Positions 6,611 to 54,860 of a stretch of 64,000 nt of DNA are shown here, piece after piece (positions within the stretch are counted from its first letter, which is position 1; every line of letters begins with the position of its first letter). The stretch covers positions 68,142,292-68,206,291 of the forward strand of contig NC_092628.1 in the NCBI RefSeq assembly GCF_039555335.1, read 5' to 3'. The DNA comes from Amphiura filiformis. Lineage: Eukaryota > Echinodermata > Ophiuroidea > Amphilepidida > Amphiuridae. Made by a program: the position numbers and the translations under genes. Below the pieces are notes generated by a model. The model was not told the DNA's origin and ran no database searches. It saw nothing but the letters and a program-made list of their open reading frames with translations.

Positions 6611-6804
6611 ATTTCCACTGATGGCTATAGGGTGTGGGTGGGGGTGGGGGTGTGTGTGGGGTGATATCTTGGCTAAAACTGCATCACGCCTTCCCATGAT
6701 GCATTTATGAAAATCAATAATCCCACTATATAGTTTCTACAGATGACGCAATAATGGTGAATAAGGGGTGAGGGTAAGTAAAATGTTGAAATATGACCGC
6801 ATTA

Positions 6805-8380
6805 AACCACAAAGGTCATGTGAGGTCAAAGGTCAGGTCAAATTTAAAGTTGCTCCGATTGGGCTGTAACTCGGGGAAAATGATCCCTGACACTTGGGGA
6901 GTATGAAACCGCAAAGGTCATGTGAGGTCAAAGGTCAGGTCAAATTACAAGTTGCTCCGATTGGGCTGTAACTCAGGGAAAATGATCCCTGACACTTAGG
7001 GAGTATAAAACCGCAAAGGTCAAGTGAGGTCAAAGGTCAGGTCAAATTTGAAGTTGCTCCAATTAGGCTGTAAGTCGGGGAAAATGATCTCTGACACTTT
7101 GGGAGTATAAAACCACAAAGGTCATGTGAGGTCAAAGGTCAGGTCAAATTTAAAGTTGCTCCAATTGGGCTGTAAGTCGGGGAAATGATCCCTGACACCC
7201 GGGGAGTATAAAACCACAAAGGTCAAGTGAGGTCAAAGGTCAGGTCAAATTTGAAGTTGCTCCAATTAGGCTGTAAGTCGGGGAAAATGATCCCTGACAC
7301 TTTGGGAGTATAAAACCACAAAGGTCATGTGAGGTCAAAGGTCAGGTCAAATTTGAAGTTGCTCCAATGAGGCTGTAAGTCAGGAAAATGATCCCTGACA
7401 CTTTGGGAGTATAAAACCACAAAGGTCAAGTGAGGTCAAAGGTCAGGTCAAATTTGAAGTTGCTCCAATTAGGCTGTAAGTCGGGAAAATGATCCCTGAC
7501 ACTTTGGGAGTATAAAACCACAAAGGTCATGTGAGGTCAAAGGTCAGGTCAAATTTGAAGTTGCTCCAATGAGGCTGTAAGTCGGGGAAAATGATCCCTG
7601 ACACTTTGGGAGTATAAAACCACAAAGGTCAAGTGAGGTCAAAGGTCAGGTCAAATTTGAAGTTGCTCCAATTAGGCTGTAAGTCGGGGAAAATGATCCC
7701 TGACACTTTGGAAGTATAAAACCACAAAGGTCATGTGAGGTCAAAGGTCAGGTCAAATTACAAGTTGCTCCGATTGGGCTGTAACTCGGGGAAAATGATC
7801 CCTGACACTTGGGGAGTATAAAACCACAAAGGTCAAGTGAGGTCAAAGGTCAGGTCAAATTTGAAATTGCTCCAATTAGGCTGTAAGTCGGGGAAAATGA
7901 TCCCTGACACTTGGGGAGTATAAAACCACAAAGGTCATGTGAGGTCAAAGGTCAGGTCAAATTTGAAATTGCTCCAATTAGGCAGTAAGTCGGGGAAAAT
8001 GATCCCTGACACTTGGGGAGTATAAAACCACAAAGTTCATGTGAGGTCAAAGGTCAGGTCAAATTTGAAGTTGGTCCAATTGGGCTGTAAGTCGGGGGAT
8101 ATGATCCCTCACACTTGGGAAGTATTAAACCGCAAAGGTCATCCGAGGTCAAAGGTCAGGTAACATTTAAAGTTGCTCTGATTGGGCTGCAATTCGGGGA
8201 AAATAATCCCTGACACTTGAGAAGTATGAAACTGGAAAGGTCATCCAAGTTCAAAGGTCAGGTCAAATTGAAAGTTGCTCCGATCAGGCTGCAACTTGCG
8301 GCAAATGATCCCTAACACTTGGGGAGTGTAAAACCGAAAAGGTCATCCGAGGTCAAATTTAACGTTGCTCAGAATATGAA
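6805..8380 (+). repeat. 102-bp satellite array 2, about 16 units, AGGTCA-rich
   Basis: The same 102-bp monomer as array 1, about 16 units. Alternating variants carry TGTG or AGTG in the DR4 spacer, hinting at a higher-order 204-bp unit between about 7217 and 7725. Units decay toward the right (TCCGAGGTC, TCCAAGTTC variants after 8130), as expected at an array edge. It ends just before the right sub-terminal inverted repeat of the Helitron-like element. Confidence 0.88.
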
Positions 8381-9123: not shown

Positions 9124-9685
9124 ATCTGAAAAATCTCGGAAACTAAACCCGCAGGCCAAACCAGGGTTCAATTTTGTTGCGTTTTTGCCACAGATTTTTG
9201 AAGGAATCGATTTCACTTTGAATTGTGCATTAAATTATTAATCAGGAAAATCATTAATGCAAAATAGGTCTGGTTTGGCCCATTACGATGGAAACCTCAA
9301 CAAAGCAAAACAGCATTCAAATCAAAATTACTAGACCCTGTAGACCTACAATCTATGCTATTAGCCTACTGATAATTATAGCAGCATTACAAAAGCCCAC
9401 CATAAAAACAAACCCACAAGAATTGTTTTTTTCAGTGCCGAATAGAAAAACATTTAGACTACATTGAACTGTCATGCTTATAGGCCCTACCATGAGATGA
9501 TTGAGTGAAGTGTGCAGAATTTGACAGCCATTCCACTCCCGATTTTACTAGACCAGTAGATCGTAAATTACCTTTTAATTCATTGTTTATGGAGAGCTGC
9601 AAGGATGTGTACATAATTATTAAGGTACTTTTCCTCATATTTGGCAATTTTATTCCAAAAAGAGATCTCAAAATCATTTATTTCT

Positions 9686-10701
9686 AGCTAAATGTTCGGA
9701 CTGGGTCAGTGTCAAATCTGGCGTTCCGCAAGGCACTGTACTCGGTCCACTCTTATTTTTGATGTATATCAATGACCTTCCTGACGATATAACCTCCACT
9801 GTACGATTATTCGCAGACGATTGCGTAATCTACAGAACCATTTCTGGTAACCGTGACGCCGACCTTCTACAGACTGACCTTGACCGACTCACAGTGTGGG
9901 AGCATACTTGGCAAATGAAATTTAATCAAGAAAAGTGTTTTGTTATGAAAGTTACAAACTCACGCAACCCCAAAACACATACATACTCATTAAATAACAC
10001 TACCCTGCAGGAGACGAACTCACACACATACCTCGGGGTAGAATTGTCAAATGACCTTAAATGGAATAAACACATAGACCATATGACTGCAAAAGGAAAC
10101 CGATCATTGGGGTTCATTAAGAGAAATTTGCGTTCATGCACACAAGATATCAAAGATCTGGCATACCGCTCGCTAGTTAGGCCATCACTTGAATATTGCT
10201 CAGCGGTCTGGGACCCGTATACTACAGAACTCATACATCAGGTGGAGGCAGTTCAAAGGAGAGCGGCCCGCTTTGTAAAAAATGACTACGACAGATACAG
10301 CAGTGTTACCACCATGACTCCAGTGGGGAACACTAGCCAGAAGGAGAAACATCACCCGTCTAGCCATATTCCAGAAATCGATACAGGGTTACCTTTCCAT
10401 ACCAGTGCGAACGCTACTGCGCCCGGTACAGCGCTCCACCAGGAGATCTCATTCACAATCATTCATCGAACTTCAACCATCAAAAGATTGCTTCAAGTAT
10501 TCATTTATTCCAAGAACCGTCATAGACTGGAACAATCTACCACAAGAAATAATCAATATCCAAGAACCCAAAGCATTTAAGAACCAGCTCAAAGATCACT
10601 TCACCACTTAAGGAAGAACAAGCGCACACCATACCCGATTCGTCTTTCCCCACTAGGGGTGTTGAGTCGTATTTAACTAGAACTAGAACTAGAACTAGAA
10701 C
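9686..10701 (+). pseudogene. 5'-truncated, frameshifted CR1/Jockey-like LINE reverse transcriptase
   Basis: From about 9702 the frame reads WVSVKSGVPQGTVLGPLLF, the RT block with the SGVPQG motif, then YINDLPDD and LFADDCVIYR with the catalytic FADD motif. A thumb/C-terminal region follows with YLGVELSNDLKWNKHI, LVRPSLEYCSAVWDP and VQRRAARFV. Near 10317 a single-base frameshift moves the frame by +1. The shifted frame carries LQWGTLARRRNITRL and SFIPRTVIDWNNLPQEI, the expected LINE C-terminus, to a stop at 10609-10611. The endonuclease and the first RT blocks are missing, as in typical 5' truncation. A 3' region ends in four GAACTA hexamers (about 10674-10701), a microsatellite tail of the kind CR1-like elements have. 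The FADDCVIYR wording favours the CR1/Jockey group. Inactive copy. Confidence 0.88.
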
Positions 10702-20994: not shown

Positions 20995-21124
20995 ATGGCA
21001 ACAACAAGAAGAGAATCAGATGGCCCAGCTATTCATTTAGATGCTGAGGAGGATGACTCTGTTATGACAACATCCGATTATGCCCAGGTGGTATTTCAAG
21101 ATGTACAGGAATGTTACCAACCAG
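20995..21124 (+). CDS. TAX1BP1: TAX1BP1-like exon 1 (coding), residues 1-44
   Basis: Starts at ATG 20995-20997 after an acidic, repeat-free leader. TTGCAG-CAG-CAAG-ATG upstream gives an acceptor at 20986-20987 or 20989-20990, so the 5' UTR is spliced. The exon ends CCAG with donor GTAAAT, phase 1. It encodes the acidic N-terminus and the first SKICH strand (VVFQDVQECYQP). Confidence 0.88.
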
Positions 21125-24100
21125 GTAAATATCAAATTGGTTATTTTGAAGATATGTTTCTATGTCTTGTCTATGTAACTATGTCTTGTCAAACATTTAT
21201 GGACTCGGTTCCTAGAAGGGGATTCATTACTGCACTCCTTCAAAAATGATCCCTTTTTCATTCTGTTTGTAATTCAATTTTCCCCAATTATTGGGGGTCA
21301 CATGCAACAATATATATTTTTCTATGCTGACTTGTTGTGCTGGAAGAATATCCATAGCCTTCATGTGCCAAAACAATGGCAAAAATTTAACATGTAGACT
21401 GTTAGTAGTGGTACTGATAGGTAAATTTGTAGTGCTATGCACAGGCCTGTGTTTTCTGCACATTCTAAATGCAGCGTACTCCACTATCAACTGTACTCTG
21501 AAGTTATTTCAACATTTTTTTAATGATTCTTTTTGTATATTACCTATTTTCCTAAGATTTTCATTCACAAATTTTGTGATTGTTTTCATTCCATAAAATG
21601 AATTTTAAATTTATGTATTCATGTACAGGTCTTAAATGGTGGCCAAATAAATTTTGTGAATGTTTGTTAGCACAGAAAAGTGGACTTTAACCATATGCTA
21701 TCTTTGATGATTGTGTTTTGAAATCATATTCTGTTTCTTGTTTTGAAATAATATTTTGTTTCTTGTTTTTCCCAGGTCACTCAATAACAATTACCTACAT
21801 GTTAACACAGGCCATCAAACCTAGTTCAAGAGATTGGGTTGGTATATTCAAAGTTGGTTGGAGTTCTACCAGACAGTACTTGGCATTTGATTGGGCACCT
21901 ATACCACCAAACTGGGAAACTGGCAAAATATGCACTCAGAGAATTATGCTGGATGGTATGTCAACATTGTACAGTCTTTTAACATGATTGCACTATCTAG
22001 CAATTCACATGAAATTGTTTGTTTCTTGGTTTCTTTTGTTTCTTCTTGTTTCTTGTTCTTCCTCTTGTCTTGTGTATAAATTACAACTTTAAATTTCTGG
22101 TTATTCTTTCATGTAATTATACACAAAGTTAGGCTTACAATTAGAATTAGGCTTAGGGTTAGGATTAGCCTACACAAAATGATTACATGAAGGTCAAAGA
22201 TCAACCAAATCCCCTCTCCCCCCCCCCACCCCCAAAAAATAATTGTGCAGTGCTTACCCTTATGGTTTCAACACCAACTATGATTCAGGAAAGTCTTTTT
22301 ATGAAAATCTTACATGAATTGACATATTCTCACAAAAATTCTGGTTATGTTTATAAATATATATATCTTGATTACAACTTTTAAGTCAAACAATGCATTT
22401 GATAATTGTCATCTATTCAGCTTACTATCTACCAAGAGAAGAGGATGGTGAGTTCTATCAATTCTGTTATATTGACTCCTATGGCAAGATGAGGGGTGCA
22501 AGTACACCATTCCAGTTTCTGAGAAGACCTGCTGATGATTTTGTTGAGGTGAGTTATCTTTTGAGTCATGCTTGTTGAGGTTATGAGGATGAGTTGATAT
22601 GAGTTGCATTGAGTCAATGAGTACTTTGATGCTGATATGAGTTCATGTTAAAGTTACTGTAGGTGAGTTATTTACTTCCAATTATTGAACTCAGATTATT
22701 TGCAAGCAGGGTGTTAGCCAGGATCCAGAAACTGTCAGTCCAAAATTGTTGGGGTCTAATATCGATTATGCGCAATGATCGATCACATTTGTTTCAAAGT
22801 ACATGTATACTGAATTTGGCAGGTCTGCATAACTCCAATATTCCATTATGTTGATACCTAAAAAGTATACGACAAACCACTATTGCTTTTCTTTTTTCTT
22901 TAAAAAAAGAAAAAAAGAAGCAGCATTTGATTAATCTTACAAGCAACTAGAATCCCCGATGCATGTCAGCAGTTTAATTAATGTTGATTTTTGACAGAGG
23001 CCTAATAATTACCTTTTCCATGACACCTTAATCATTATTTTTTAAATGACAATGACAATCAATTAAGTACTGACCATTGTTCAATGGGATATTGTGTGTA
23101 ATTGATTACTTCGAGAGGAAATGACATAATTTGTTATGGTAGTCCCTGTATATCCTGTTGATATGGTTGCAACATCAGAGTTGCCAACACATATCTAACC
23201 CACACAATTGGGAGGGTAACATTTTGGATGATGACTTGCTTCTAAGTCATTGTATCGTGTTAAAGTATGTGAGGTGTAGCAATGTTATTGATGGCCATTT
23301 CCCCTGTTTCACCACTTGGTCAAAGTTGTTTTTTGAAGCTGTGTTGGTGAAATGAATTTGCAATGCATGTTTTATTAAGTAATACATTGAAGCATTTAAT
23401 TGACTTGTCATTGATGGGTTACACAGTAGTATAAGCTTTGTAGTTCAGTGTTCTTGTCCCCAATTGGGTGTTTTCTGTTAAAGCACACAAAATAGAGAGT
23501 GCAGACATAACATTAAATGCCAAATGTAATACTTCAAGTTCATGGTGTCAATGTTATGTTCACACTTATTTAAAATTCTTGCACTACATAGCTGCCATAT
23601 GATCACTGATTCTCTCTCTGTGTCAGGTGGCGCTGTGTAGCGCTGCTGTGGTCTTCACAAGAGTACGCCATCTCACTCGGTCTGATGCCAAGTGCATTGC
23701 ACCTTTCATTGGTTAGAAACCAGCTTCACATCATTTGTCCAAGATGTTGGTGGACGTCCTCTTCCTTGTCGGCCTTCCCATAGCCCCTTGCAAAATTTGT
23801 AACTGATCACTGATTACTGGTACCATAAGTTTTTTTCGGTGAATTTGAGTTTGCATCATTTATTAACAAAATGCTGAAAAAAACATCAATAGGAATGTTT
23901 TGCAAAAATGTCCATATTCTATTTTATAACTTCCACAAATACTCAACCACACTTAGGCAAATTTAACATGAAATAATTTAATCAAATGTAAGGATACAAG
24001 TCTTTACTTTGCAAGAGGAGGCAAATCATTTCAAAGAGGGCATAGTAAAATAATATATTTAGAGCATTTACTTGTTCCATACATGTATATGGGTTCAGGG

Positions 24101-27100
24101 ATGTTCTATTTTGAATCTTCTTATAATTAACAATTGGCAGTAGGATTATTCTTGGGTGTAGTTTAGATTGCCAGCTTCAGAGCTGAGATAAAGTCAGATC
24201 CATTTAAATTATGATGAGCCAATGCTCACCAAATATGGTAATGTGATTGATTGATTGATTGATCTTACAGGTTGTAGATGACAGTATGGACATGTTAATG
24301 ATCCAGTCAAGACAACAGGCCACATTAGAGCAGCAGTTGCAGAAAACAATGAAGCAGTTAGATGAGCTGACAGGAGAGAGGACTTCATTGGAATCAGAAA
24401 CATTGGAACTGAGAGAAACAGTAGAAAAACAACAGAAAGCAATGAGAGATCTCAAGACACAGTATGATGAACTACTTAAAGCTAAGGAGGTGTGTTATTA
24501 GCGAAGAATGTAAAATGAGAATAAGTATTCATATTATCCCATATGTAATACCATATATGTAACTTATATATATTTAAGAAATAAAGGGTAATGCATGATC
24601 CTTTACGAAAATAATGTGTCGAGGCAGTAAAACGTAAATAATGGGTGAGGCGCAGCCGAACCCATTATTTAAACGCTTTTACTGCTGAGGACACATTATT
24701 TGCGTGTAAAGGCTAATGCTGCACCCTTTATTTGTATTCTATTACCACAAAATAGTGTGATTTAAAGAGAAAATATCAAATTTTTTGCCCAAATATTTCA
24801 AGTTGTTTACCTCAAGGTGGAGCGCATGCGCGTAGCCAAAGCGTATGCACATTCCAATAACAACCTAACATTCCATTCTCCCCTATGAGCAGGTATGCAC
24901 ATACGATAACACACCCCTGACATTCCATTCTCCCCTACATAAGCAGGTGTGCTGTGCGCTCTGCTGTGCGCTGTGATGATAGAAGAACATAAAGTTCGTT
25001 GCCCTTGACACTTTATCGCTAATTAATGGTCTGTCACGTGACGCGTTTCAACAAATCACAGTGCGCGATTTTGAATAATGGGTCGTGGGGGTAATAGAAT
25101 GCAAAATAATGTGTAGGACCTAACTGGGAAAATGTGAATGCATGTTGTTATTATATGCACCAATTCAGACAATCATGTCCAATTAAACGAAATATTTGTT
25201 CATATTTATGAACCAACATGAGTTGATGAGGCTGACATAAGGCCATGGCAAAGTCAATAAATTGGACAATTAGATGTAACAAACTTAGTATTGTTGTAAA
25301 TTTTGTTCTTCTATCTTCTCATATATAATAAAACTTTTAGAAGCTACAATTTGCCAAATAACCTTGCCTTTCTCACCAATTGCACAAGATAGGCCAGTTT
25401 GTGTTGAAAACTGGATTCGTCCCAGTTCCCAAGTAATTTATAATCTCAGCATCTATTTCCAATGCATTTTGCATATTATTGAAGATATTATCTAAATGAA
25501 AAGAGAGTCATAATATTATCTATGCTTAACTAACACAGGAAGCAGATACCAAGAACAAAGGACTACAACATGAGAAGAAAACATTGGAAGGGCGATTGGA
25601 AGAGGTGCATTCAGCTCTTGTGAGTCTTGAACACGATAAGACCCAGTGTGAGGACACATTACAGCAGACGATCAATAAGCTTCACGAGGCAGAGAAGCAG
25701 ATTGACAGAGTCAATGTAGAGAAGGAGCAGCTATTCAAAGACATTGAACATGTCTGTATGGAAAGAGAAGAGTTTAAGGTAAGTGATGGGAAACTTCTCT
25801 GTTCAATTCAAGAAGACTGATCATACAGTATGGGGAATATGTACACAAATTTTCCCTTAAATTTTAAATAATCTCTTTGTATCTTTATGTAGGTAGGCAA
25901 TGATTTCCCTCCAAATGCTGAATTGTGGGACATTTTCCAGGCCTTATTTTGTAAATGATAATGATGATCTAGATGTACTTCCTTGCAAATGATCATGGAC
26001 AAATGAAGAAATCAACAAGACTAAATAAACCATTTAACAAACAAGGTTTTCAAGCAGCAAAATGATAAAGAAGTTGTCCATGGATGCTGAGTTGCAGAGA
26101 GCATCATTACCAAATTTAACCAGACATTATTGTAATTTCAGTCCCAATTTGCCAACTCTGAGAAGCTGAATGAGGAGATGCGTCGTGAGGTTACAAGTCT
26201 CATGCAGCAACTATCCAACCATTCTGAACAGACCAAAGTGGTGAAAGAAAATGAGACTAAGGTGAGGGAGGAGAAACGCAAAATAGAACAGCAGCTCCTT
26301 GTAGCATCTGCAGATAGGGTAAGTACATGTACTGTTTAACACTTTTGCAATGCATCATGAACGTGAAGTTAATTATATCTGATATAGACCTTTTCAGGAG
26401 GACTCATATTCAACCAATCAATTTCTTGTGCTTTGAATACATATTTGACCACACAGTGGACACCATATCATATGCTATGTCAAATATGATTAAGGTGATA
26501 CATGATTGGTGTGAGCACTCATACCACACCACACCACACGTTCATCAAACACACTCGCAAGTGTGTGATTGGATGTGGTGTTTTTGTTTACTGCACGCAT
26601 CATTTCTCTTGAAATTTCAATCAGCTGCTAGAAAGGTCTAATATATAGCTATCCTTGTTACAGTAGTATTGATCAAATTGAAACTGTAAAAGAATCTACA
26701 GCTGTCAACAAATGCGACAAATGATCTTATCACTTCCAAGACTGTGAGGACTATTTTATGTGTTATGGTCATTGGACTAAGCATTTCTGAGTTCTTCAGC
26801 AGAACTTGTCTGGCAAGTTTGGAACTTAAAATGGAGTTGCAAAATATACCAAGCCAATGTATCAAATCAAATCATTGAAATTATATTTGAAGAATTTGTT
26901 CGTTTTTGGGTAATTGTAGTTGCGTTTGTATACAGTCTAAGTTGCAGTTATATTATACACGTGTTAATCCAATGTTCTATTTCATTTTGATATCATCAGG
27001 AACATCTTCGTACAATTAAAGAGAAACTGAAACAAAGAGAGTCTCAGCTGGCAGCTGCTGAGCAGAATCGCAAGTATCTATCAGATGAAATAGACACCAT

Positions 27101-30100
27101 GAAGACTGTGAACCAGAAACTGTCACAAGATCTGGAAGTAAGTTGTTGATTTGTGTCTTGTGCCATATAACCTATTAGGAAAGTATTTAAATGATCAAAG
27201 CAAATGAAGGGCTTATTTGCCTTAAATGTGTGACAGTTAATATTTTGTTGTTTTTAGTATAAGAATTATTAGGAAGGTTTTTTTGTCTGTATTCCAAATA
27301 ACCTTGCAAAATAAAGTTTAACAGTTTTGATTACTGATGGTTTCCATTTGAATTGAATTCTTCTCATTGTGTGCTTGTTGTTTTGTTTATTTGCAGGTTG
27401 CTTACACTGAGAAGGATGCCATGAAGGGACAGTTGGCTCGTAAAGAGAAAGAATTCCATGAGCGTGATAGGAAGTTTCAAGGCAACATGCATCTAATGCA
27501 GCACCAGGCTAAAGAAAAAGAAAACCTGTTAAACGATCAGGTGAAAACTCTGAAGGACAGCATCAAACAGCTAGTTGAGGTAGATATTGCTATCTAATCA
27601 TATGAATAACCAAAACTAGGCCCCTCAAATCTTGTATTAATATGGGAGGCAACATGCAAATGGATAGGAAAGACTGCCCAACTCAGTAGTAGACTATCAG
27701 GAGTATGTTATGAACTGGATTGACTGCTACACAACACATCATCGTTAAAAACATGACAACACATTCATTCAAATTCTAAGGTTAATCTTTCATTCATGCT
27801 GCTCTTAATCTCCTTTATGCATTTAGCAGAACCAGAATGCCACAGGTGTGCTTCTATTGAACTCTAATTAACTCCCTTATCTTTTTATCTTTGTCTGTAC
27901 AGGAGAAGGAAGTAGCATTGCGTGGACACAAAGGACCTATGCAGGCATCACAAGTAGCAATGAAAGATCTGAGAACAAAACTAAAGAAAGCCCAAGACAA
28001 ATGTGAAGATGAAACCAAGAAGAGAATAGAAATGCACAAGACACTGGTGAGTGAAACAATGTCTAGTTACTATTGAAACCAAGAAGAGAATAGAAATGCA
28101 CAAGACACTGGTGAGTGAAACAATGTCTAGTTACTATTGAAACCAAGAAGAGAATAGAAATGCACAAGACACTGGTGAGTGAAACAATGTCTAGTTACTA
28201 TTGAAACCAAGAAGAGAATAGAAATGCACAAGACACTGGTGAGTGAAACAATGTCTAGTTACTATTGAAACCAAGAAGAGAATAGAAATGCACAAGACAC
28301 TGGTGAGAGAAACAATGTCTAGTTACTATTGAAACCAAGAAGAGAATAGAAATGCACAAGACACTGGTGAGTGAAACAATGTCTAGTTACTATTGAAACC
28401 AAGAAGAGAATAGAAATGCACAAGACACTGGTGAGTGAAACAATGTCTAGTTACTATTGAAACCAAGAAGAGAATAGAAATGCACAAGACACTGGTGAGT
28501 GAAACAATGTCTAGTTACTATTGAAACCAAGAAGAGAATAGAAATGCACAAGACACTGGTGAGTGAAACAATGTCTAGTTACTATTGAAACCAAGAAGAG
28601 AATAGAAATGCACAAGACACTGGTGAGTGAAACAATGTCTAGTTACTATTGAAACCAAGAAGAGAATAGAAATGCACAAGACACTGGTGAGTGAAACAAT
28701 GTCTAGTTACTATTGAAACCAAGAAGAGAATAGAAATGCACAAGACACTGGTGAGTGAAACAATGTCTAGTTACTATTGAAACCAAGAAGAGAATAGAAA
28801 TGCACAAGACACTGGTGAGTGAAACAATGTCTAGTTACTATTGAAACCAAGAAGAGAATAGAAATGCACAAGACACTGGTGAGTGAAACAATGTCTAGTT
28901 ACTATTGAAACCAAGAAGAGAATAGAAATGCACAAGACACTGGTGAGTGAAACAATGTCTAGTTACTATTGAAACCAAGAAGAGAATAGAAATGCACAAG
29001 ACACTGGTGAGTGAAACAATGTCTAGTTACTATTGAAACCAAGAAGAGAATAGAAATGCACAAGACACTGGTGGGTGAAACAATGTCTAGTTACTATTGA
29101 AACCAAGAAGAGAATAGAAATGCACAAGACACTGGTGAGTGAAACAATGTCTAGTTACTATTGAAACCAAGAAGAGAATAGAAATGCACAAGACACTGGT
29201 GAGTGAAACAATGTCTAGTTACTATTGAAACCAAGAAGAGAATAGAAATGCACAAGACACTGGTGAGTGAAACAATGTCTAGTTACTATTGAAACCAAGA
29301 AGAGAATAGAAATGCACAAGACACTGGTGAGTGAAACAATGTCTAGTTACTATTGAAACCAAGAAGAGAATAGAAATGCACAAGACACTGGTGAGTGAAA
29401 CAATGTCTAGTTACTATTGAAACCAAGAAGAGAATAGAAATGCACAAGACACTGGTGAGTGAAACAATGTCTAGTTACTATTGAAACCAAGAAGAGAATA
29501 GAAATGCACAAGACACTGGTGAGTGAAACAATGTCTAGTTACTATTGAAACCAAGAAGAGAGCAGAAATGCACAAGACACTGGTGAGTGAAACAATGTCT
29601 AGTTACTATTGAAACCAAGAAGAGAATAGAAATGCACAAGACACTGGTGAGTGAAACAATGTCTAGTTACTATTGAAACCAAGAAGAGAATAGAAATGCA
29701 CAAGACACTGGTGAGTGAAACAATGTCTAGTTACTATTGAAACCAAGAAGAGAATAGAAATGCACAAGACACTGGTGAGTGAAACAATGTCTAGTTACTA
29801 TTGAAACCAAGAAGAGAATAGAAATGCACAAGACACTGGTGAGTGAAACAATGTCTAGTTACTATTGAAACCAAGAAGAGAATAGAAATGCACAAGACAC
29901 TGGTGAGTGAAACAATGTCTAGTTACTATTGAAACCAAGAAGAGAATAGAAATGCACAAGACACTGGTGAGTGAAACAATGTCTAGTTACTATTGAAACC
30001 AAGAAGAGAATAGAAATGCACAAGACACTGGTGAGTGAAACAATGTCTAGTTACTATTGAAACCAAGAAGAGAATAGAAATGCACAAGACACTGGTGAGT

Positions 30101-33100
30101 GAAACAATGTCTAGTTACTATTGAAACCAAGAAGAGAATAGAAATGCACAAGACACTGGTGAGTGAAACAATGTCTAGTTACTATTGAAACCAAGAAGAG
30201 AATAGAAATGCACAAGACACTGGTGAGTGAAACAATGTCTAGTTACTATTGAAACCAAGAAGAGAATAGAAATGCACAAGACACTGGTGAGTGAAACAAT
30301 GTCTAGTTACTATTGAAACCAAGAAGAGAATAGAAATGCACAAGACACTGGTGAGTGAAACAATGTCTAGTTACTATTGAAACCAAGAAGAGAATAGAAA
30401 TGCACAAGACACTGGTGAGTGAAACAATGTCTAGTTACTATTGAAACCAAGAAGAGAATAGAAATGCACAAGACACTGGTGAGTGAAACAGTGTCTAGTT
30501 ACTATTGAAACCAAGAAGAGAATAGAAATGCACAAGACACTGGTGAGTGAAACAATGTCTAGTTACTATTGAAACCAAGAAGAGAATAGAAATGCACAAG
30601 ACACTGGTGAGTGAAACAATGTCTAGTTACTATTGAAACCAAGAAGAGAATAGAAATGCACAAGACACTGGTGAGTGAAACAATGTCTAGTTACTATTGA
30701 AACCAAGAAGAGAATAGAAATGCACAAGACACTGGTGAGTGAAACAATGTCTAGTTACTATTGAAACCAAGAAGAGAATAGAAATGCACAAGACACTGGT
30801 GAGTGAAACAATGTCTAGTTACTATTGAAACCAAGAAGAGAATAGAAATGCACAAGACACTGGTGAGTGAAACAATGTCTAGTTACTATTGAAACCAAGA
30901 AGAGAATAGAAATGCACAAGACACTGGTGAGTGAAACAATGTCTAGTTACTATTGAAACCAAGAAGAGAATAGAAATGCACAAGACACTGGTGAGTGAAA
31001 CAATGTCTAGTTACTATTGAAACCAAGAAGAGAATAGAAATGCACAAGACACTGGTGAGTGAAACAATGTCTAGTTACTATTGAAACCAAGAAGAGAATA
31101 GAAATGCACAAGACACTGGTGAGTGAAACAATGTCTAGTTACTATTGAAACCAAGAAGAGAATAGAAATGCACAAGACACTGGTGAGTGAAACAATGTCT
31201 AGTTACTATTGAAACCAAGAAGAGAATAGAAATGCACAAGACACTGGTGAGTGAAACAATGTCTAGTTACTATTGAAACCAAGAAGAGAATAGAAATGCA
31301 CAAGACACTGGTGAGTGAAACAATAATCTAGTTACTATTCTGGTCTCTACATGGACATGGAATTTTGTTTGCTCTGGCTGAAAAATGTTTTGTGTAGTAT
31401 TGTGTAGCGGGTTATTTTATGTGTTTCTCTACATGAAATAATTCTATCCTCTTCCAACACCTAGGTTTCATTATCATTGACGTATTGGACTTTTTATTTT
31501 TTTCGGAGAAGAGCAGGTAGGGCAACTACTTGATTATATTTCTACATGTTCATACTACATACTCTGAAAATTTTAGAAAATTCATTTGAGTCCGTTTTTT
31601 AAAATCACATTTTGTTCCTAAAATGGGGGTTACAACGGGCAGTCTCTCCATAGGGCTACATGTAAAGACCAGTTATAGACAAATGGCCCTAAAATAAAAC
31701 TGACTCGTGCGAATTTCCTCAAATTTTGCATATGATGTAGATTTAACATCTGGAATGTAATGCAAGTGATGTCGTTGCTGCTCTTCTAAATTCATTTTTA
31801 AAATGACTGCCCCAGACCAAGGTGCCAAGTCAATTGGATCCATGACCAGATTTGTACACTCCAGTGACAGAGATAAGGGGGCAAGGGAGGGCACATGCCC
31901 TGGGTGCCATCTTAGAGGGCGTCAAATCAACCAATTCAGCGCCACTGAGATTGATTCTGCACCCCGTCCAAGCGGCGAAAGTAAAAATATTTCAACATAA
32001 GTAGTCATTTGAAAATACTGTTTCAAGACAAATTGATTATAACCAAATAAGTGATATTTGTGCACATTTTGGTGTGGTCCTTGTGCAATTGTATCATGAA
32101 GGGGACGTGACATTCTGTACTTTGCCCTATGGGTGCCACAACCGTAGCTACCTCACTGTTTGCATCAAGATCATTTTAGGTTCATCAGACTCAGAGATCC
32201 TTTTGTTTTAACATAATGCCCATTATTGTCTGCAGCTTGTGCTCCAGTACTACAGTTAGTTGATTTATCATGGGACAGTGTATAGCTGTTCGGTATTATC
32301 CAAAACTAATAGTTCAATTTATTTCTTATTAATGCTGTCCTGTGTATAACTTGATATATCTACGTAGAAAAATTAGCCAATTTAAAATCTGAGATACTCA
32401 AACCAGTAATGTAGGGATTACAAGATGAACACTTCATAATGGGGATTGTAGTGAAACTTAAATAAATAAATGCCACACAGTAATGAACATATTGGATATT
32501 ATTAAGCTTTTGAAACTGACAAATGGCCATCTTTTCTGATCACAAATTTCCAACAGGAAGATATAACTAAAGCATTTATATATCTACCAATTGTTTTTCA
32601 TTGCACACCCTGAAGACTGCCGTTGAAGCCACATATGTGTCGGAGAGAGAAGACTTTCAGAAGGAGATAGAGGATATGAAGATTAGGCTATCCATGGGAG
32701 CGGAAGAGTACAAGAAGAAATATCTGGAATGCAAAACTTTAGAAGCCAAGTATGACAAACTGAAAAAGACTCAAACCAAACGAGATTCAACAACAAGTGT
32801 AACAAGTAAGATGCTCAGAAATTATGTCTATGTTCTGCATAGGGATATGTTAGCTTTTAATTCCTTGGATCAGAGTGTACTATTAATTGATTCTTCATCT
32901 TGTGCTGAAGGGGTCATTCTTTTTTGCAAATATAAAGAAATATAAGAAAATCATAAAAATCATATTTTTTTCTCTTCAAGAAGAAATGACAATAAAAAAA
33001 ATTTAATTTCCATTTTATAATGAGCATAGAAATATTATGCTATTTTCAGGTTTTGTGGATGTAAAATAATTGTGTATATTTTAAAGCGAGTTTATCAGAA

Positions 33101-36100
33101 ACGTTCAACTTGATGGTAGCAGATTATGTTTCAAATGATCAGCTAAGGCAGTTTTGGCCAGCCTTGTGTAATGTTTGATACAATTAATTTCTTATCCCTT
33201 GTAGCCAGGTTTAATTCAATCTGTACAGTGTTAGAAGTGGCCAGTGTTGCCAGTATACAAAACTTTCCAGTTCCCCATCCGTGTCCAATGACTTCTGCAA
33301 GGGCACTGCCCCATTTCCCTCTCTTATCTTTTTACATTTTTTGCTGTCCTTCAACTGCATTGTGTGTAGTGCCATGAATATCTGTTTGGATATTATTAAG
33401 TTGCACATCATTAATTCTTTTCCCTAATCTATAACTTTCATTAGCTAATCTTAAAAGATATAGTTCCAAACATGGCAGCTTATAAAAGAAACAAAGCTAA
33501 TAAGCTGTAAATTGTGTTAATTTTCTGCTCTAGAAGAAGAAGTAGCCCTTGAGAAAGCAGCAGCTTCCCCAGGTACATCCAGTGATGACAAAGGTACCCA
33601 GTCAGGGCTACCAGCAGCAGCTGTGTTAAATGCACCAACTACACCAGCAGATGGGGGAACCTTTGATTCCAAAGAATTAGCAGAACAACTCAAAGAGCTT
33701 ATGCAGGAATTAGAAGACCGTAGTGGAAAAGTGAAGAGATACAAACTGAAATATATGGTAGGTTTTCAGATTGCTACAAAAATGCAAGTAGTGTACAAAG
33801 TTGTAGTGCATTTCATATTAACTGCAGTATAGAATCCACAACAAAGGGAAAACGGTGGCTCAGCATTTGATTGGCTTGTCATAGAATGTGTTTTGTGACT
33901 TGCAGAGGTGGGATTAGAAACACTTCAATTCAAGACACCTGTTAGTCTGTTACCTCTATTGTATGTAATGTATTGTCTGTGCAAAGCAGCTAATACTTAG
34001 ATAATAATGCTCCAGATATCCCCAAATATCCTAGCATGGGGTAATTCTGATTCCAGAAAATAGGCCAAGGTAGACCCTGAAATATGTTGGGTGGATTTCA
34101 TATTAATCAAATGGATACAAGCTAGAAATTACAGAAATCAAGACAAATTCAAGTAGCAGGTCTGATAGTCAAGTTATTGAAGGCAGTTATCTCTGGAATC
34201 AATAATTGTTGTCATATTAAGTTACACTTCATTTGGCTTAAAACTAGCAAAAATATTTACTGTACGGATTGATATAGTACGGTGTGCACACAGTTGAGTG
34301 CAGCAGCTGCACTAGTTGCATATAATGTGTGACTGGCGCACACTTTTATGCAAGTATAATTTGGGACTTTATTGATGCACACGGTAACAAAAACCCAAAT
34401 ATTTTATGCCCTTTTATAAGTCGAACAAAGTGTAAGAGCTTGTTAGAGGTGGTGTCATTATTCTGCTCTCAATATCATAGTTCTGACCAATCATTGGACC
34501 CTCTATTCATGACCTTATGGGCAAAAAGTAAGCAATAGCTGGCAGCTGATGTATATCAAGTGTTTGGTTAATTATTGCTCCAAGCAGAATCACATATTCT
34601 AGATGGCAAAATCAAGTGAATTATAATTTAATTATTCCTGTTTGTTCCATATTGGGATGTTTATTATTCATTACCAGATACTGTATTATTTTAAAGCATC
34701 CATTTTTTTCTGTTTCTTAACAGGAGGAGAAAGAGAAAAACAGCAGTTTAGTCCAAGAAAGAGATGCTCTAAGAGACAAATTGAAGGAGCAAGAAGACAG
34801 AATGAAGAACATGGAGGAAGAAATGACTGCAAAAATTCAATCACAAAAGGTTGGTTTTGTTTCAAAGTCACAGATTTTGTAGGAGTTCAACATTGTCAGT
34901 TTCCTCATTGCCATATTATTAGTGACATGTGCAAATAAGTGTGCCCACCAGCTGGAGAAATCACACACAAATCATACACAGTGAGGGAATTTGCATTCTG
35001 TGGGGGCAATTTTAGGTTTTTTAAAGTAGTCATTTTCTTACCAGTTAGACATCAGTTGGGTTAATCAAAACATTTCCCTGACTTTTGAAAATGTCTAGTT
35101 AATAATGTATCCATATTTATCATTTTTTGTAATATGCAGGAAGAAAATGATCAGCTTCAGCAGAACTTCAACAAGCTCCATAGTGACTACATGCAGATGA
35201 AGCACTCCTTTGAATCCGTGAAATTTGACATGGCACAAGCCAGTCAGGAAAGTACACCAACCAAACAACAGCGCCCTCCCATCGTTGAGCCACCGGCAAG
35301 CCCAGAGAGAGATCTCCCACTTCAATTCAAAAATCCTTACACCCAATCTCAATCTCAAACTCAATCTCCAGTAGATGTTGTACCAGAGCAAAAGTTTCCC
35401 AATCCATATGTGGAAGAGGGTGCTGCACAACCCACAGCGCCCCCTATGAGCGTGCCGCCAGAGGGAAGCTCATTGTTGTCACCAGTGTACCCTCCTGATA
35501 TTGGCCTACCAGAACCATTGCAACCACATATTTTGCCCCAAGCCAAGATTGCAGCCATTAAGAATGCTACTAGATCAACCAATAGTAATGGTGAACCAAT
35601 ATGTGATATGAGTGACGATAGGTAAGATATGAAATAATCTGGTTTTGTGTTCTAGTTGTGTTAGTGCAAGAAAATTGTATATAGCTGCATGTTTGTTATT
35701 TCACAGAAAGAGCATTTTTTAGTTTCAATTTGTTCACCTATTTGTTTTATAACGTTTCAATTATTTAATTAATTGCTTTTAAGGTGGTACTACACCCCTA
35801 GATAAATATGTGACTATTTTTGCATTTTTCTCAAAAAATAACAACACACTGGTAACAAAAGTTATGTATATTATAGGGGCAAGGAATCCAGTTACAACAC
35901 TGGAATTTCAGTGACTCAAGACAAGCGATACGTTATTTATGATAAGAAAAGAGGTACCGCTAGAATGTACCTCATTTCTTAACATATATAATGAACCACT
36001 TGTCTAGAATCACTGAAATTTCAGTGAAGTAATTGGATTCCTTGCCTCAATAATATACATAACTTTTGTTACCAGTGTGTAGTTATTTTTTGAGAAAAAT

Positions 36101-36755
36101 TCAAAATTAGTCACCAAATTTATCAGGGGGTGTAGTACCACCTTAAGACTGGTAAAATAGCTTAAAATGTGTGCACTTACCTATATTTTTATAATCCATT
36201 AATAGCAAAGTTTCACTCAAAATGTCACTTGCGAATTTCTTACACTGACACCATAATCTTTTTATTGGATCAATTGTAATTATTTTCGCTATAATAATCA
36301 ATTTGGTTTTGGAAAATGAATGGCCCATTCTATTTTACTTCATCCACGTTATTAGTCTGAGGTAGTCTTGCAACACCACAGTTAGACTTTGAGACCCTGA
36401 ATGGGTCATGTCCCATTGGTTGGGAACCCCTTCTCATCAACATTGACTTTTGAATTCAAAATCACTGATATTTTCTCATCATTCTCATTACAGAGATGAA
36501 GTAGCAGATGAATTCCATGATGCACGTGAGCTCCCAGAGGATGGCTCCATCAAGAAATGTCCAGAATGTAGCATAGACTTCCCTCCATCATTTCCTGAAG
36601 AGGACTTTGTGATGCATATCCAGCAACATTTTGCTCGTCAGTGTCCTATGTGTCAGCTACTGATGTCAGGGGAGACAGAAGAGGACCACCAAGCCTTCGC
36701 TAATCATGTAGAGACTCATTTCACATACGAAGATGATGATCAAGAAGTAGCTTAG
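20995..36755 (+). CDS. TAX1BP1: TAX1BP1/CALCOCO-family autophagy receptor, 14 coding exons, 940 aa
   Basis: Joining 14 exons with GT-AG introns and consistent phases gives 940 codons plus stop. Residues 32-138 form a SKICH domain with DWVGIFKVGW (63-72), YYLP (105-108), GEFYQFCY (113-120) and RGASTPFQF (128-136), diagnostic of TAX1BP1, CALCOCO1 and CALCOCO2/NDP52. DMLMI (153-157) sits where vertebrate members have the LC3-interacting segment. Residues of about 160-730 are coiled coil with a Pro/Ser/Thr-poor heptad pattern, interrupted by an Ala/Ser/Thr-rich linker (about 580-620). A Pro/Gln/Ser-rich stretch (about 735-845) precedes two C-terminal ubiquitin-binding-type zinc fingers: C876-C879-H895-H899 and C904-C907-H925-H929. 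In mammals these proteins link ubiquitinated cargo to ATG8 proteins and temper NF-kB signalling; the role here is inferred. It is longer than human TAX1BP1 (789 residues). The ATG exon is preceded by an acceptor, so a 5' UTR exon exists. Confidence 0.93.
21776..21955 (+). CDS. TAX1BP1: TAX1BP1-like exon 2, SKICH core
   Basis: Acceptor TTTTTCCCAG, donor GTATGT, 180 bases, phase 1 at both ends. Encodes residues 44-104 including ITYMLTQAI, DWVGIFKVGW and the Trp/Pro-rich PIPPNWETG loop. Confidence 0.93.
22421..22548 (+). CDS. TAX1BP1: TAX1BP1-like exon 3, SKICH end
   Basis: Acceptor ATCTATTCAG, donor GTGAGT, 128 bases, ends in phase 0 with residue 146. Encodes YYLPREEDGEFYQFCY and RGASTPFQF, the most conserved end of the SKICH domain. 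Confidence 0.93.
23627..23716 (+). other. Candidate alternative terminal exon
   Basis: TCTCTCTCTGTGTCAG is a strong acceptor, and in phase 0 with exon 3 the following sequence is open for 29 codons, then TAG. If used it would give a SKICH-only isoform of about 175 residues lacking the coiled coil and zinc fingers. The translated tail has no family similarity, so this may be chance. Confidence 0.2.
24271..24489 (+). CDS. TAX1BP1: TAX1BP1-like exon 4, LIR-like segment and first coiled coil
   Basis: 219 bases, phase 0 at both ends, donor GTGTGT. The acceptor tract is unusual: four GATT tetranucleotides then GATCTTACAG, with little polypyrimidine. Encodes residues 147-219: VVDDSMDMLMI, then a Gln/Glu/Leu heptad pattern. 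Confidence 0.9.
24578..24735. mobile_element. Foldback element in an intron, arms about 65 bp
   Basis: The left arm reads AAATAAAGGGTAATGCATGA and on to ATAATGTGTCGAGGCAGTAA. The right arm is its near complement, through TTACTGCTGAGGACACATTA and ending near GCACCCTTTATTT. The centre AATAATGGGT ... ACCCATTATT pairs too. An outer pair, TTTGTATTCTATTACC (24729) and GGTAATAGAATGCAAA (25089), suggests the full element may extend to about 25115. Confidence 0.7.
25539..25778 (+). CDS. TAX1BP1: TAX1BP1-like exon 5, coiled coil
   Basis: Acceptor CTAACACAG, donor GTAAGT, 240 bases, phase 0. Encodes residues 220-299, charged heptads such as LEEVHSALVSLEHDK. Confidence 0.9.
26142..26318 (+). CDS. TAX1BP1: TAX1BP1-like exon 6, coiled coil
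   Basis: Acceptor TTGTAATTTCAG, donor GTAAGT, 177 bases, phase 0. Encodes residues 300-358 (SQFANSEKLNEEMRREV, ending LLVASADR). Confidence 0.87.
26382..26644. mobile_element. Probable small TIR element in intron 6
   Basis: The left end TATAGACCTTTTCAGG is mirrored by CTAGAAAGGTCTAATA at the right (reverse complement TATTAGACCTTTCTAG). About 260 bp, with a CACACC simple repeat inside. A TA target site is possible but not certain. Confidence 0.5.
27000..27137 (+). CDS. TAX1BP1: TAX1BP1-like exon 7, coiled coil
   Basis: Acceptor GATATCATCAG, donor GTAAGT, 138 bases, phase 0. Encodes residues 359-404 (EHLRTIKEKLKQRESQLAA). Confidence 0.9.
27397..27579 (+). CDS. TAX1BP1: TAX1BP1-like exon 8, coiled coil
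   Basis: Acceptor GTTTATTTGCAG, donor GTAGAT (weaker than its neighbours), 183 bases, phase 0. Encodes residues 405-465 (VAYTEKDAMKGQLARKEKE through IKQLVE). Confidence 0.9.
27903..28046 (+). CDS. TAX1BP1: TAX1BP1-like exon 9; its 3' end seeds the 64-bp array
   Basis: Acceptor TTTGTCTGTACAG, donor GTGAGT at 28047, 144 bases, phase 0. Encodes residues 466-513, ending DETKKRIEMHKTL. The last 36 bases of this exon (28011-28046) plus 28 intron bases are the first unit of a roughly 52-copy tandem array. Reading through the donor gives VSETMSSYY then TGA (28074-28076), so only use of this first donor keeps the frame open. Confidence 0.9.
28011..31339 (+). repeat. 64-bp tandem array, about 52 copies, exon end plus 5' splice site
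   Basis: The unit begins GAAACCAAGAAGAGAATAG, includes CACAAGACACTG, then GTGAGTGAAACAATG and TCTAGTTACTATT. The period is exactly 64 (unit starts 28011, 28075 ... 31275). The first unit spans the exon 9 / intron 9 boundary, so every copy duplicates 36 coding bases and a consensus donor. I saw only four deviant internal units: GTGAGA near 28306, GTGGGT near 29073, GAGCAG near 29560 and ACAGTG near 30489. The final unit is altered (AATAATCTAG). Such homogeneity implies recent amplification or gene conversion. Confidence 0.97.
31340..32615 (+). other. Rest of intron 9
   Basis: AT-rich intronic sequence. A patch at about 31860-32150 is less AT-rich and includes GCAAGGGAGGGCACATGCCC and later GGGTGCCACAACCGTAGCTAC, probably a dispersed-repeat fragment related to the CGTAGC-type ends. 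No exon was found here. Confidence 0.4.
32616..32805 (+). CDS. TAX1BP1: TAX1BP1-like exon 10, coiled coil
   Basis: Acceptor after TTTTTCATTGCACACCCTGAAG (tract then AG at 32614-32615), donor GTAAGA, 190 bases, phase 0 in and phase 1 out. Encodes residues 514-577 (TAVEATYVSEREDFQKEIED through RDSTTSVT). Confidence 0.85.
33534..33757 (+). CDS. TAX1BP1: TAX1BP1-like exon 11, linker and coiled coil
   Basis: Acceptor TTTTCTGCTCTAG, donor GTAGGT, 224 bases, phase 1 in and phase 0 out. Encodes an Ala/Ser/Thr/Pro-rich linker (SPGTSSDDKGTQSG, NAPTTPADGG), then LAEQLKELMQELEDRSGKV. Confidence 0.88.
34724..34849 (+). CDS. TAX1BP1: TAX1BP1-like exon 12, coiled coil
   Basis: Acceptor GTTTCTTAACAG, donor GTTGGT, 126 bases, phase 0. 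Encodes residues 652-693 (EEKEKNSSLVQERDALRDK). Confidence 0.9.
35140..35621 (+). CDS. TAX1BP1: TAX1BP1-like exon 13, last coiled coil and Pro-rich region
   Basis: Acceptor GTAATATGCAG, donor GTAAGA, 482 bases, ends in phase 2. Encodes residues 694-855: a short helix (EENDQLQQNFNKLHSDYMQ), then a Pro/Gln/Ser-rich disordered stretch with QSQSQTQSP, PTAPPMSVPPEG and YPPDIGLPEP. Confidence 0.92.
35779..36146. mobile_element. TTAA-flanked MITE in the last intron
   Basis: 368 bp counting both TTAA sites (35779-35782 and 36143-36146). Terminal inverted repeats begin GGTGGTACTACACCCC and extend through the whole arms, so the element can fold into a long hairpin; TTTTTCTCAAAAAATAAC pairs with its complement near 36085. 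TTAA target duplication is typical of piggyBac-type transposition. A relative is at about 58225-58556. Confidence 0.85.
36494..36755 (+). CDS. TAX1BP1: TAX1BP1-like exon 14, two C-terminal zinc fingers
   Basis: Acceptor TTCTCATTACAG, phase 2 in, stop TAG at 36753-36755. Finger 1 is CPECSIDFPPSF then HIQQH; finger 2 is CPMCQLLMSG then HVETH, followed by an acidic tail YEDDDQEVA. Spacing is C-x2-C-x15-H-x3-H in finger 1 and C-x2-C-x17-H-x3-H in finger 2, two longer than the vertebrate finger. The vertebrate PPxY motifs in these fingers are absent (PPSF in the first, none in the second). Confidence 0.93.
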
Positions 36756-42235: not shown

Positions 42236-43445
42236 TACCAAAGTTAGTAAAAAATAAGCATTAGGTATTGTATACCAAAATAATTATCAGTAAACAATAA
42301 TAATAATAATAACAATAATAATAATAATACACATGCTTTTATATAGCGCCATTTTAGGTGATCACAGGGCATTAAAACAATAAACATGAAAAAACAAACC
42401 AAATAATAAAAAACAATTCGAAACAATGCAAGAACTATAATTGTGGAAAAGGGTGGAGGCCCTTTTTGAAGACCGGAAGTGGGCCGGTTGATCTTATGGT
42501 TTGAGGCAGAGTGTTCCACGTGGATGGTGCTGTAAAAAAAAAAAGAATGTATTGTCTGGCAGATTTGAGAGTTCTGCTGTTTATCTTTGGTACATCAAGA
42601 CGAGCATTATGTATTGAATACCAACATTAGTAAGAATTGGGTATTGGATGCCCATTTTTAGAGCTTTAGTAAGAATTAGGTGTTATACACTACAGTTAGT
42701 AAGTGATACAACTTTAATCATTAGATATTGGATATCAAATTTAGTAACCATTAGGTATTAGATGCCGAAGGTAGTTAACAGTAGATATTGGATACCACGG
42801 TTAGTAAGCAGTAGATATTGGACATACCAAAGTTTTATTGGGTATTGGGTGCTCAAGTTAATAAGCATTAGATATGGGATATCACATTAATAAGCATTAG
42901 GTATTGGATACCGAAGTAAGTAAGCATTAAATATTGGATACCAAAGTTAGTAAACATTAGGCATTGTGTGCCCAAGTTAGTAAGTTATAGGTATTGGTTT
43001 CATAAGTTAGTAGCCACTATTTATTGAGTGTCCAAGTTTAAGTATTATGTGCACAGGTTAGTAAGCATTAGATATTAGGTGCCTAAGTTATTAGACATTA
43101 GGTATTGGAAGCCCAAGTTAGTAAGCTTTATATATTGGATACCAAGTTAAGTATTCTATATTGGATACCAAAGTTAGTAAGCATTAGGTATTGTATGCCC
43201 AAGTTAGTAAGCATTAGTATTGTATGCCCGAGTTAGGAAGCATTAGCTATCGGATACCAAAGTTAGTAAGCATTTTATATTGGATACCAAAATTAGTGAG
43301 TATTAGGTATTGGTGCCCAAGTTTGTAAGTGTTAGGTATTGAATTCTCAAGTTAGTAACCACTAGGTATTGGGTACCCAAGTTAGTAAGCAATAGGAATT
43401 GGATACCAATTAAAGCATTATATTGGATACCACAGTAGTAAGCAT

Positions 43446-44590
43446 TACTCCCCATTCCAGAAAAATACAGCACTAAGTTTATATATCAATCACTCTTTAT
43501 TCATTAAAAAAACACAAAGAATGGAAACATGAAACCCAGGACAGGGTTTGGGAAGACCCAAACCCATGCAGGGTAGACATCAAAAACAGCACAAATAACA
43601 ATTAAATATATAAAACACATTTCACCAAAAAGGAAGGTTAATAGAAAACATGAAAGCCTGGGAATGGGAAGGATGATGCAGAAGAAAGTAAATACCTCCA
43701 GAGGATGAGCTCAGCATTTTATGTAGGAACAATTCTCCCAAACAGCATTATGCCGCGCATTCAAGATGGTATAGCTTGAGAGGAGGGCGAGCTGGCTGAG
43801 CTCCTTCTTCAGAGGTTTGACTTTCTTCGTGCTGGCCTGTAAAATTGATTTCAGACGATGTTCGTTTTCGTGAGGTATGAGGCCACGACTGCCTACTTCG
43901 ATGCAAAACAGTTGACATTTATAACCTTTATCATGCAGATCGTGGATGAGATGGGAATATTTGGTTTCTTTCCGGTCGTGGGCTTTTTCAATATTTGTTT
44001 CAAAGGGGACAGTGAGCTCAATGATTTGTATGGAGATGCCGTCATCATGAAGGACTACAATGTCTGGTTTTAAATTAGTGATCATGATGTTAGGGGGAAT
44101 AGAACCCCCACCAGTAGAGAACCCGTCGATGTCAGCAAAAATTGTGGCCAAAGGAAACTTAGATTTGAGAGTGTTAACTAAATGAAGTAAAATTGTATTG
44201 TGACGCCAAGTTAGGCGGCCCTGTTCAAGAGACACGGGGCAGAAATTTAACGCATGAAGAAAAGTTTCTTTGTTCCCACAGAGTTTGCAATTAGCATTAG
44301 TCCTTTTACCCCAAGTACGCAGGTTACTTAAAGTTGGCAAAAAGTCGATGGAGGCACGAACGGCAAAACTTAACACCCCTCTCGGAAGGCTGTATATTAG
44401 CGATCTCCAGGTAAGGTCGAACGACTGGAGATGCATTAACTTCAGAAGATTTCCCTGCTGAAGGAGAGGGCGGATGTAATCTTGGCAAAAAGTCACGCGA
44501 TCATCGTATTAAAAAAATTAAAAGATTAAAAAGATTTAAAAATATTATCAACTTATGCCAAATGAAATACAGCTGGCAATAAAAGTTAAA
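43446..44590 (-). mobile_element. 5'-truncated RLE-type (R2/Hero-like) non-LTR retroelement
   Basis: Insertion into the 30-bp minisatellite. On the minus strand it carries the C-terminal coding region (44496-43711), then about 260 bases of 3' UTR with AATAAA at about 43499-43494. Sequence upstream of the ORF is broken by an in-frame stop near 44508, which marks the 5' truncation. No clear target duplication. Confidence 0.75.
43711..44496 (-). pseudogene. Retroelement C-terminus: CCHC knuckle and restriction-like endonuclease
   Basis: 261-residue open frame. CKLCGNKETFLHALNFC (residues 70-86) is a C-x2-C-x7-H-x4-C knuckle, followed by WRHNTIL. KPDIVV (143-148) then E160 in IIELTVPFE gives the PD ... 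E pattern of the PD-(D/E)xK restriction-like endonuclease that ends R2, R4, NeSL and Hero retroelements. The N-terminal part (LTWRSLIYSLPRGVLSFAV, LPTLSNLRTWGKR) fits the linker after reverse transcriptase. RT itself is missing. The frame is intact over the preserved part, so the insertion is fairly young. Assignment to R2 or Hero rather than another RLE clade is uncertain. It was probably inserted by target-primed reverse transcription. Confidence 0.85.
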
Positions 44591-45839: not shown

Positions 45840-46610
45840 GGTATGTACACGCGTGCACAATTGTGTTAACAAGCGTTCGCAAATGTTTGCGAGTACGCAC
45901 TCATGTTTACAAGTGTTCATGGGTACGCTTGCGTACATTGCCGGTACGCACGCACGTTCGCAAGTGTTTGCGAATACGCATGCGCGTGCGCAATTGTTTA
46001 TGGGTACGCATGCACATGTTCAAGTCTTTATAGGTACGCACATGCGTTTGCAAGTTATTGCGAGTACGCACGCACGTTCGCAAGTGTTTGCAAGTATACA
46101 CATAATGCATACACAAGTGTTTGCAAGTACAAGTACAAACGCACGTTCTCAAGTGTTTGGGAGTATACGCACGCACGTTCGCAAGTGTTTGCGTGAATAC
46201 ACTCGTTCTCAAGTGTTTATGCGTGCATGCACGTTCGCAAGTGTTTGCAAATGCGCAAGCGTATGCGCAAGTGTTTACGGGTACGCACACGCATGCGCAA
46301 GTGTTGATGGGTACGCACTTGTGTTCGAAAGTTATTGCGACGCGCGCAGCGCGCTACGTTCACGCAATCGAGTTTGCAAGTGTTTTCGAGTACGCATGCC
46401 CGTTCGCAAGTGTTTATGGGTACACGAAATTGATTACGGATACGCATGCGAGTTCGCAAGTGTTTGCAAGTGCACCCTCGCGTTCACAAGTGTTTATAGG
46501 TACGCACGCACATTTGCAAATTATTGAAGGTATACGTACGCGCGTGCACAAGTGTTTGTGAGTACGCACACAAGTGTTTATGGGTAGGCCTACGCACACG
46601 CGAGTGCAAA
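45840..46610. repeat. 30-bp minisatellite, alternating purine-pyrimidine, open in several frames
   Basis: Units like CGCAAGTGTTTGCGAGTACG then CACGCACGTT, with period about 30 (10 codons), roughly 25 units. Open frames of 224, 146 and 97 residues exist in the three plus frames and of 127 and 80 on the minus strand. All read as short-period repeats (for example THARSQVFAS), so they reflect repeat composition. GCGTGCGC and TACGCACGCACG runs are candidates for left-handed (Z) DNA. Confidence 0.85.
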
Positions 46611-54476: not shown

Positions 54477-54860
54477 TTACTTGCATTTATAAAGGTACAA
54501 AAAATGCTTTGTCAACTCTATAATAACATGTTAATATATCGTGCATCTATTTTTCAAAAGTGTTTTTAGAACGTTATTAAAACGTTTTTATACCCTTTAT
54601 ATAAACCAACAATAAAACGTTATTTGTAAAATGTTTTGTGTTTGCTGGGCAACTCAACTTGCATGTTCTACGACGACGTTGAAAAATTGATATGATGATG
54701 ATATCAAAAATAAATTTCAAAGTTCAAGGTAACTCGACTTATGGCCTAAAACGCGACGCTTACTTTGCACGTACAATCTTTGGAAAGCTATTTAGGATTT
54801 GAAGGTTAAAAATAGGTCAAATCATCAAATTGAGGCTTTTACGATAAAATTGACAAAATG
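54477..54860. other. Intergenic, no gene seen
   Basis: AT-rich unique sequence between the hairpin-headed repeat and the 19-bp minisatellite; nothing recognised. Confidence 0.35.

Follow-up and report, generated by a model that had tools for sequence, protein, structure and literature searches.

When the end of an exon is repeated, together with its 5' splice site, some 52 times inside the intron that follows, which of the donors is used, and what becomes of transcripts that use another? Most work on how the spliceosome selects among equivalent donors has used artificial constructs that offer it two or three. In the window (the whole 64,000-nt stretch of Amphiura filiformis DNA analysed here), we find a real gene with ~50 identical donors at a fixed spacing of 64 nt, each with a readable outcome in the form of an exon length and a stop. 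Nature rarely offers such a test of how a cell picks one of many identical splice sites. We consider it probable that it carries a young minisatellite that lies astride a splice donor and is mostly spliced out, with low leakage into nonsense mRNAs. The gene that harbours the array is laid out as follows:

20995..36755, + strand: TAX1BP1-like gene, coding span, 14 coding exons, 940 aa
20995..22548, + strand: exons 1-3 including their introns, encoding the SKICH domain (residues 32-136)
36494..36755, + strand: last exon, C-terminal zinc-finger region

Joined at canonical splice sites, the 14 exons yield a 940-codon frame running from 20995 to 36755 on the + strand, and the 940-aa product is letter-for-letter identical to an Amphiura filiformis database protein. 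The N-terminal SKICH domain was recognized by Pfam (PF17751, E 2.9e-30), and a search of the PDB with this part of the protein returned Tax1-binding protein 1 as the best match, followed by CALCOCO2. The C-terminal zinc finger (PF18112) scores 21.6 bits, slightly under the Pfam cut-off of 23.2, and the zinc-finger chains of TAX1BP1 structures were matched with E ~1e-7. Sea-star homologues are the next closest proteins, at 44-47% identity among the best 120 of 926 matches. The TAX1BP1-like identity proposed in the earlier note is thus upheld by the SKICH domain, the PDB matches and the identical A. filiformis protein. Judged by its sequence, the gene is a TAX1BP1 homologue of SKICH/coiled-coil/zinc-finger architecture with a predicted autophagy-receptor role. 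No paper on this gene in A. filiformis appeared by title among the matches listed.

Whether the array truly overlaps a splice site depends on the exon 9/intron 9 boundary, for which the following elements matter:

27903..28046, + strand: exon 9, 144 nt, phase 0 at both ends, ending at the first donor
28047..28052, + strand: first 5' splice site, GTGAGT (CTG/GTGAGT)
28047..32615, + strand: intron 9, 4569 nt (1305 nt if 51 units are removed)
32616..32805, + strand: exon 10, acceptor ccctgaag/ACTGCC

We compared the exon 9-10 junction over 29 residues in nine homologues. The junction produced by the first donor aligns without gaps in four of them, namely three sea stars (P0003-P0005) and P0006. 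The other five are more distant, are gapped and give no support: the acorn worm has four gapped positions just past the junction, two amphioxus proteins have four spanning it, and two vertebrate proteins have 14 in the junction region. The 12 residues encoded by the repeat unit, ETKKRIEMHKTL, have similar counterparts in the sea stars (ETKKRTELQKKL, ETQKRVELQKKL and ETKKRVELQKKL). Scored with an approximate donor matrix, the first donor ranks third among the gene's 13 donors. Because the sea-star junction is gap-free and the A. filiformis protein is identical to the conceptual product, position 28046 is very probably a genuine exon end, and its joining to 32616 would very probably give the normal mRNA and protein. 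The gene model and the homologue junctions agree in this respect with the earlier placement of an exon 9 donor at 28047.

The array itself starts within exon 9:

28010..31338, + strand: minisatellite, 52 tandem units, 51 of 64 bp and a last one of 65 bp
31274..31338, + strand: terminal unit 52, 65 bp, with AA replacing G in its intron part

Tandem Repeats Finder (TRF) reports a period of 64, 52.0 copies, 99% matches and 0% indels at 28010-31339. An arrangement of 52 × 64 bp placed head-to-tail lies within the unit size of ~6-100 bp given for minisatellites in the glossary of PMC12771815. Each 64-bp unit combines the last 36-37 bases of exon 9 with the first 27-28 bases of intron 9. The array breakpoints have one T in common, so a start at 28011 and the TRF start at 28010 are both valid. 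In a unit-by-unit comparison, 47 of units 1-51 match the consensus exactly, and each of the four variants is private to one unit: unit 5 has the donor GTGAGA, unit 17 the donor GTGGGT, unit 25 two neighbouring changed bases and unit 39 a single changed base. Unit 52 follows the consensus through unit position 51, then has AA for G and passes into unique intron sequence; this AA, found in unit 52 alone, could be the ancestral form or a later change. None of the 14-mers of the 64-bp unit was found elsewhere in the 64,000-nt window on either strand. Across the window, a unit longer than 10 bp is repeated more than five times in seven separate arrays, of which the 64-bp array is the most uniform, at 99% matches versus 66-93% for the other six.

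TRF and the unit-by-unit comparison therefore confirm, in this assembly, the earlier note's central claim of an exon end and donor repeated about 52 times. Its count of about 52 competing donors stands if a GT suffices (52 of 52 units) and falls to 50 by the full consensus, with CTGGTGAGT (CTG/GTGAGT) intact in all units except 5 and 17. The near-perfect homogeneity it described holds for 47 of 51 units and is in part uncertain, as differences between units may have been smoothed away by short-read polishing.

What would a later donor produce? The answer is set by a stop codon close to the first donor:

28074..28076, + strand: in-frame TGA, reached if a downstream donor is used

We translated exon 9 as extended to donor n = 1, 2, 3 and 51 and obtained the same result each time, a 522-aa product ending in VSETMSSYY and a stop. 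The premature stop expected of downstream donors was thus obtained for each one tested. Because the TGA adjoins the first donor, it would be reached at any copy number; the frame has already ended there, and the argument that 64 is not a multiple of 3 is not what decides the outcome, as had been thought. Five exon junctions lie downstream of the stop. By the established rule, a premature stop with exon junctions downstream makes an mRNA a target of nonsense-mediated decay. Since five such junctions remain after the stop, mRNAs made with a downstream donor should be targets, and we predict them to be so.

We looked for such products among known proteins. With the 940-aa protein as the query (7987 candidates scored), no truncated isoform was evident among the best 120 of 926 matches, and the sole entry named A. 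filiformis in that set is the full-length, first-donor product. Neither the truncated 522-aa form (149 candidates) nor an exon 8-10 piece (51 candidates) gave a match when used as the query, under length limits that shut out the 940-aa protein in both cases. Protein searches are blind to unstable nonsense mRNAs; read with this in mind, the protein evidence supports use of the first donor.

With the same donor matrix, 50 sites in the array match or exceed the score of the first donor, versus three in the gene's other 12,431 bases, of which two are real donors and one lies inside exon 6. In the remainder of intron 9 (31338-32600), no site reached that score. No yUnAy branch-type motif occurs in the unit, and the best AG there is preceded by a pyrimidine fraction of 0.50, compared with 0.56-0.89 at the 13 real acceptors, a small margin in a crude test. 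Lacking a yUnAy motif and, by that crude measure, a clearly pyrimidine-rich AG, the units are unlikely to act as small exons or to form new introns. Concealment of the donors by RNA structure was rejected, as three units fold with a z of +1.21 and 180 of 200 shuffled sequences fold at least as well. In the absence of a branch motif, a good AG and a special fold, the array most likely multiplies donors only. Two of the four variant events fall in the donor hexamer, with P ~0.05 for that many by chance. Selection to preserve the extra donors is thus unsupported: the variants do not spare the donor, and nothing points to such selection.

These properties suggest the following course of events. 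An initial 64-bp duplication, with 1 bp common to its ends, would have duplicated the exon end along with the 5' splice site, as the anatomy of the units implies, and fast expansion to ~52 copies may have followed over the past million years or so. Since the original exon end is unit 1, the frame stays intact whenever the donor of that unit is used, as the translation shows. Splicing could go three ways: with the first donor, so that the array is removed, with early units at a low level, or with late units. Under exon definition, where the spliceosome matches the 3' splice site upstream to a donor at a normal exon distance, the first donor or first few donors are favoured; the first donor of the 144-nt exon would be preferred and the remaining array removed with the intron. 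Donor 2 or 3 is probably used in some transcripts, as in human IFI6, and leaked transcripts carrying the VSETMSSYY tail and stop would be destroyed by nonsense-mediated decay. The array would then be mostly passenger DNA that is tolerated, perhaps at a small cost to expression that depends on copy number.

One point against this passenger reading is that the intron-proximal site often wins in experiments that set two strong donors against each other. Moreover, a purine-rich exon sequence, a likely enhancer, sits between every pair of donors, and because of its position the choice would shift towards later units; according to PMC5585400, when an enhancer separates two competing donors, the advantage goes to the intron-proximal one. 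As described in PMC8724738, U1 is able to occupy two sites of a single pre-mRNA, and a donor lying downstream brings factors to the 3' splice site upstream.

In the strongest alternative, copy-number-tuned nonsense splicing would send a sizeable share of transcripts to decay, and array length would set the protein level; we regard this as unlikely. It is consistent with the identity of 50 of the 52 donors, each preceded by the same purine-rich exon sequence, with the identical early stop from each downstream donor tested, with the effect of an enhancer between donors (PMC5585400) and with the use of downstream repeat donors in IFI6 (PMC4526556). The protein data argue the other way, given that the sole A. 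filiformis entry in the best 120 of 926 matches is the first-donor product and that the truncated form was not found among the 149 and 51 candidates, as does the pattern of variants, in which two of four events hit the donor without a sign of selection keeping it. That array length is a heritable dial, with more units giving more out-of-frame donors, more decay and less protein, is a more doubtful proposition still. If true, natural alleles of differing length would differ in expression, and the array would be a donor-multiplying minisatellite whose extra donors are all unproductive.

Returning to the passenger reading, its proposal of a young array can be set against published figures for the species. 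The genome description in PMC11310086 puts the neutral rate at 1.885e-9 per base per year, heterozygosity at 3.22% and the base error of the assembly at 0.00068; this assembly is presumed to be the source of the window. From four or five changes in 3264 bases, the burst would date to 0.65 or 0.81 Myr, with upper bounds of 1.3 or 1.6 Myr, while the published figures imply a mean allele divergence of ~8.5 Myr. The chance that all four variants are private is ~0.005 with steady turnover, ~0.07 if the array grew one unit at a time and ~0.05 if it grew in blocks. The private variants therefore lean towards a quick burst, or towards assembly errors, which would weaken the burst argument. Exchange between units, moreover, can give an old array a young look. 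The near-identical units and the burst-age estimate support the earlier proposal of a recent expansion.

If the published figures hold, we infer that the expansion is younger than most allele pairs, and many haplotypes should lack it or carry it at another length. A burst at ~0.65-0.8 Myr, set against ~8.5 Myr of allele divergence, suggests that the copy number of the array is polymorphic. The copy-number polymorphism foreseen in the earlier note gains indirect support in this way, and from a single assembly. If length alleles exist, wild animals would supply a ready dose series with which to study how donors compete, how nonsense-mediated decay acts and how well repeats inside genes are tolerated.

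An assembly artefact or a wrong copy number, with a true array that is much shorter or different and an identity among units that stems from nanopore assembly and polishing, is in our view improbable. According to PMC11310086, Flye was used to build the published genome from Nanopore R9.4.1 reads, and polishing relied first on nanopore and afterwards on short reads. Reads of 150 bp would be hard to place on 64-bp units. The variant density also fits the stated error rate, at which 2.2 errors are expected in the array (P = 0.19 for at least 4). Single long reads, however, can span a 3.3-kb array, and four private variants together with a distinct last unit are unlike a simple one-block duplication. 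Finally, a U1 trap, in which many U1 snRNPs bound along the intron would limit U1 or shield the intron from early cleavage, would suit the excess of high-scoring sites in the array (50, versus three in the rest of the gene, among them two real donors) and is nonetheless extremely improbable, as an snRNP so abundant would probably not be titrated by a single locus and the unit offers no AATAAA or ATTAAA to suppress, only one weak variant, AATAGA.

How does the array compare with known systems? The human IFI6 minisatellite has a 12-bp unit in ~26 copies, and its extra units keep the frame. The brittle star unit, in contrast, is 64 bp long, is present in 52 copies and includes 36-37 exon bases, and the extra units tested give a stop. 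What the two share is a minisatellite that offers several splice donors to one transcript: in IFI6 (6-16), according to PMC4526556, which cites Turri, Cuin and Porter (1995), two downstream units act as donors and three mRNAs result. As in that case, the 5' splice site of each A. filiformis unit is continuous with the real exon donor. Intron gain by tandem duplication, as covered in PMC4974935 (the Rogers model, ATP2A1, fission yeast 24-bp units and potato RdRp), likewise involves tandem duplication of a sequence bearing splice signals; here, unlike in intron gain, an intron has been lengthened, with neither a convincing new acceptor nor an evident new intron. The array resembles ordinary intronic minisatellites (VNTRs) in its head-to-tail, near-identical units and probable length polymorphism, and it differs from them in that the first unit is partly coding and every unit holds a full 5' splice site. 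Among titles and abstract openings in the open-licence literature, where absence is weak evidence, IFI6 and intron gain by duplication were the only close cases. The locus is thus of a known kind, a minisatellite supplying several donors as in IFI6; new here are the 64-bp exon-plus-intron unit, its 52 copies and an early stop by which the additional donors are rendered unproductive.

The rest of the window holds several further features. Two arrays of closely similar 102-bp units lie ~1 kb apart at 5243-5810 and 6804-8357, with 5.6 and 15.3 copies and 93% and 92% matches, respectively. An open frame on the + strand at 9624-10580 contains a reverse transcriptase domain (RVT_1, E 3.1e-13) and is probably a retroelement remnant; another at 43711-44508 on the - strand, with a zf-RVT match (E 3.3e-6), is perhaps a second. 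A long sulfotransferase-like open frame at 733-1596 on the - strand (Sulfotransfer_5, E 1.6e-5) is perhaps a separate gene. Minisatellites at 42715-43447 (30-bp unit, 69% matches), 45945-46305 (30-bp unit, 66% matches) and 54855-55474 (19-bp unit, 79% matches) look older than the 64-bp array.
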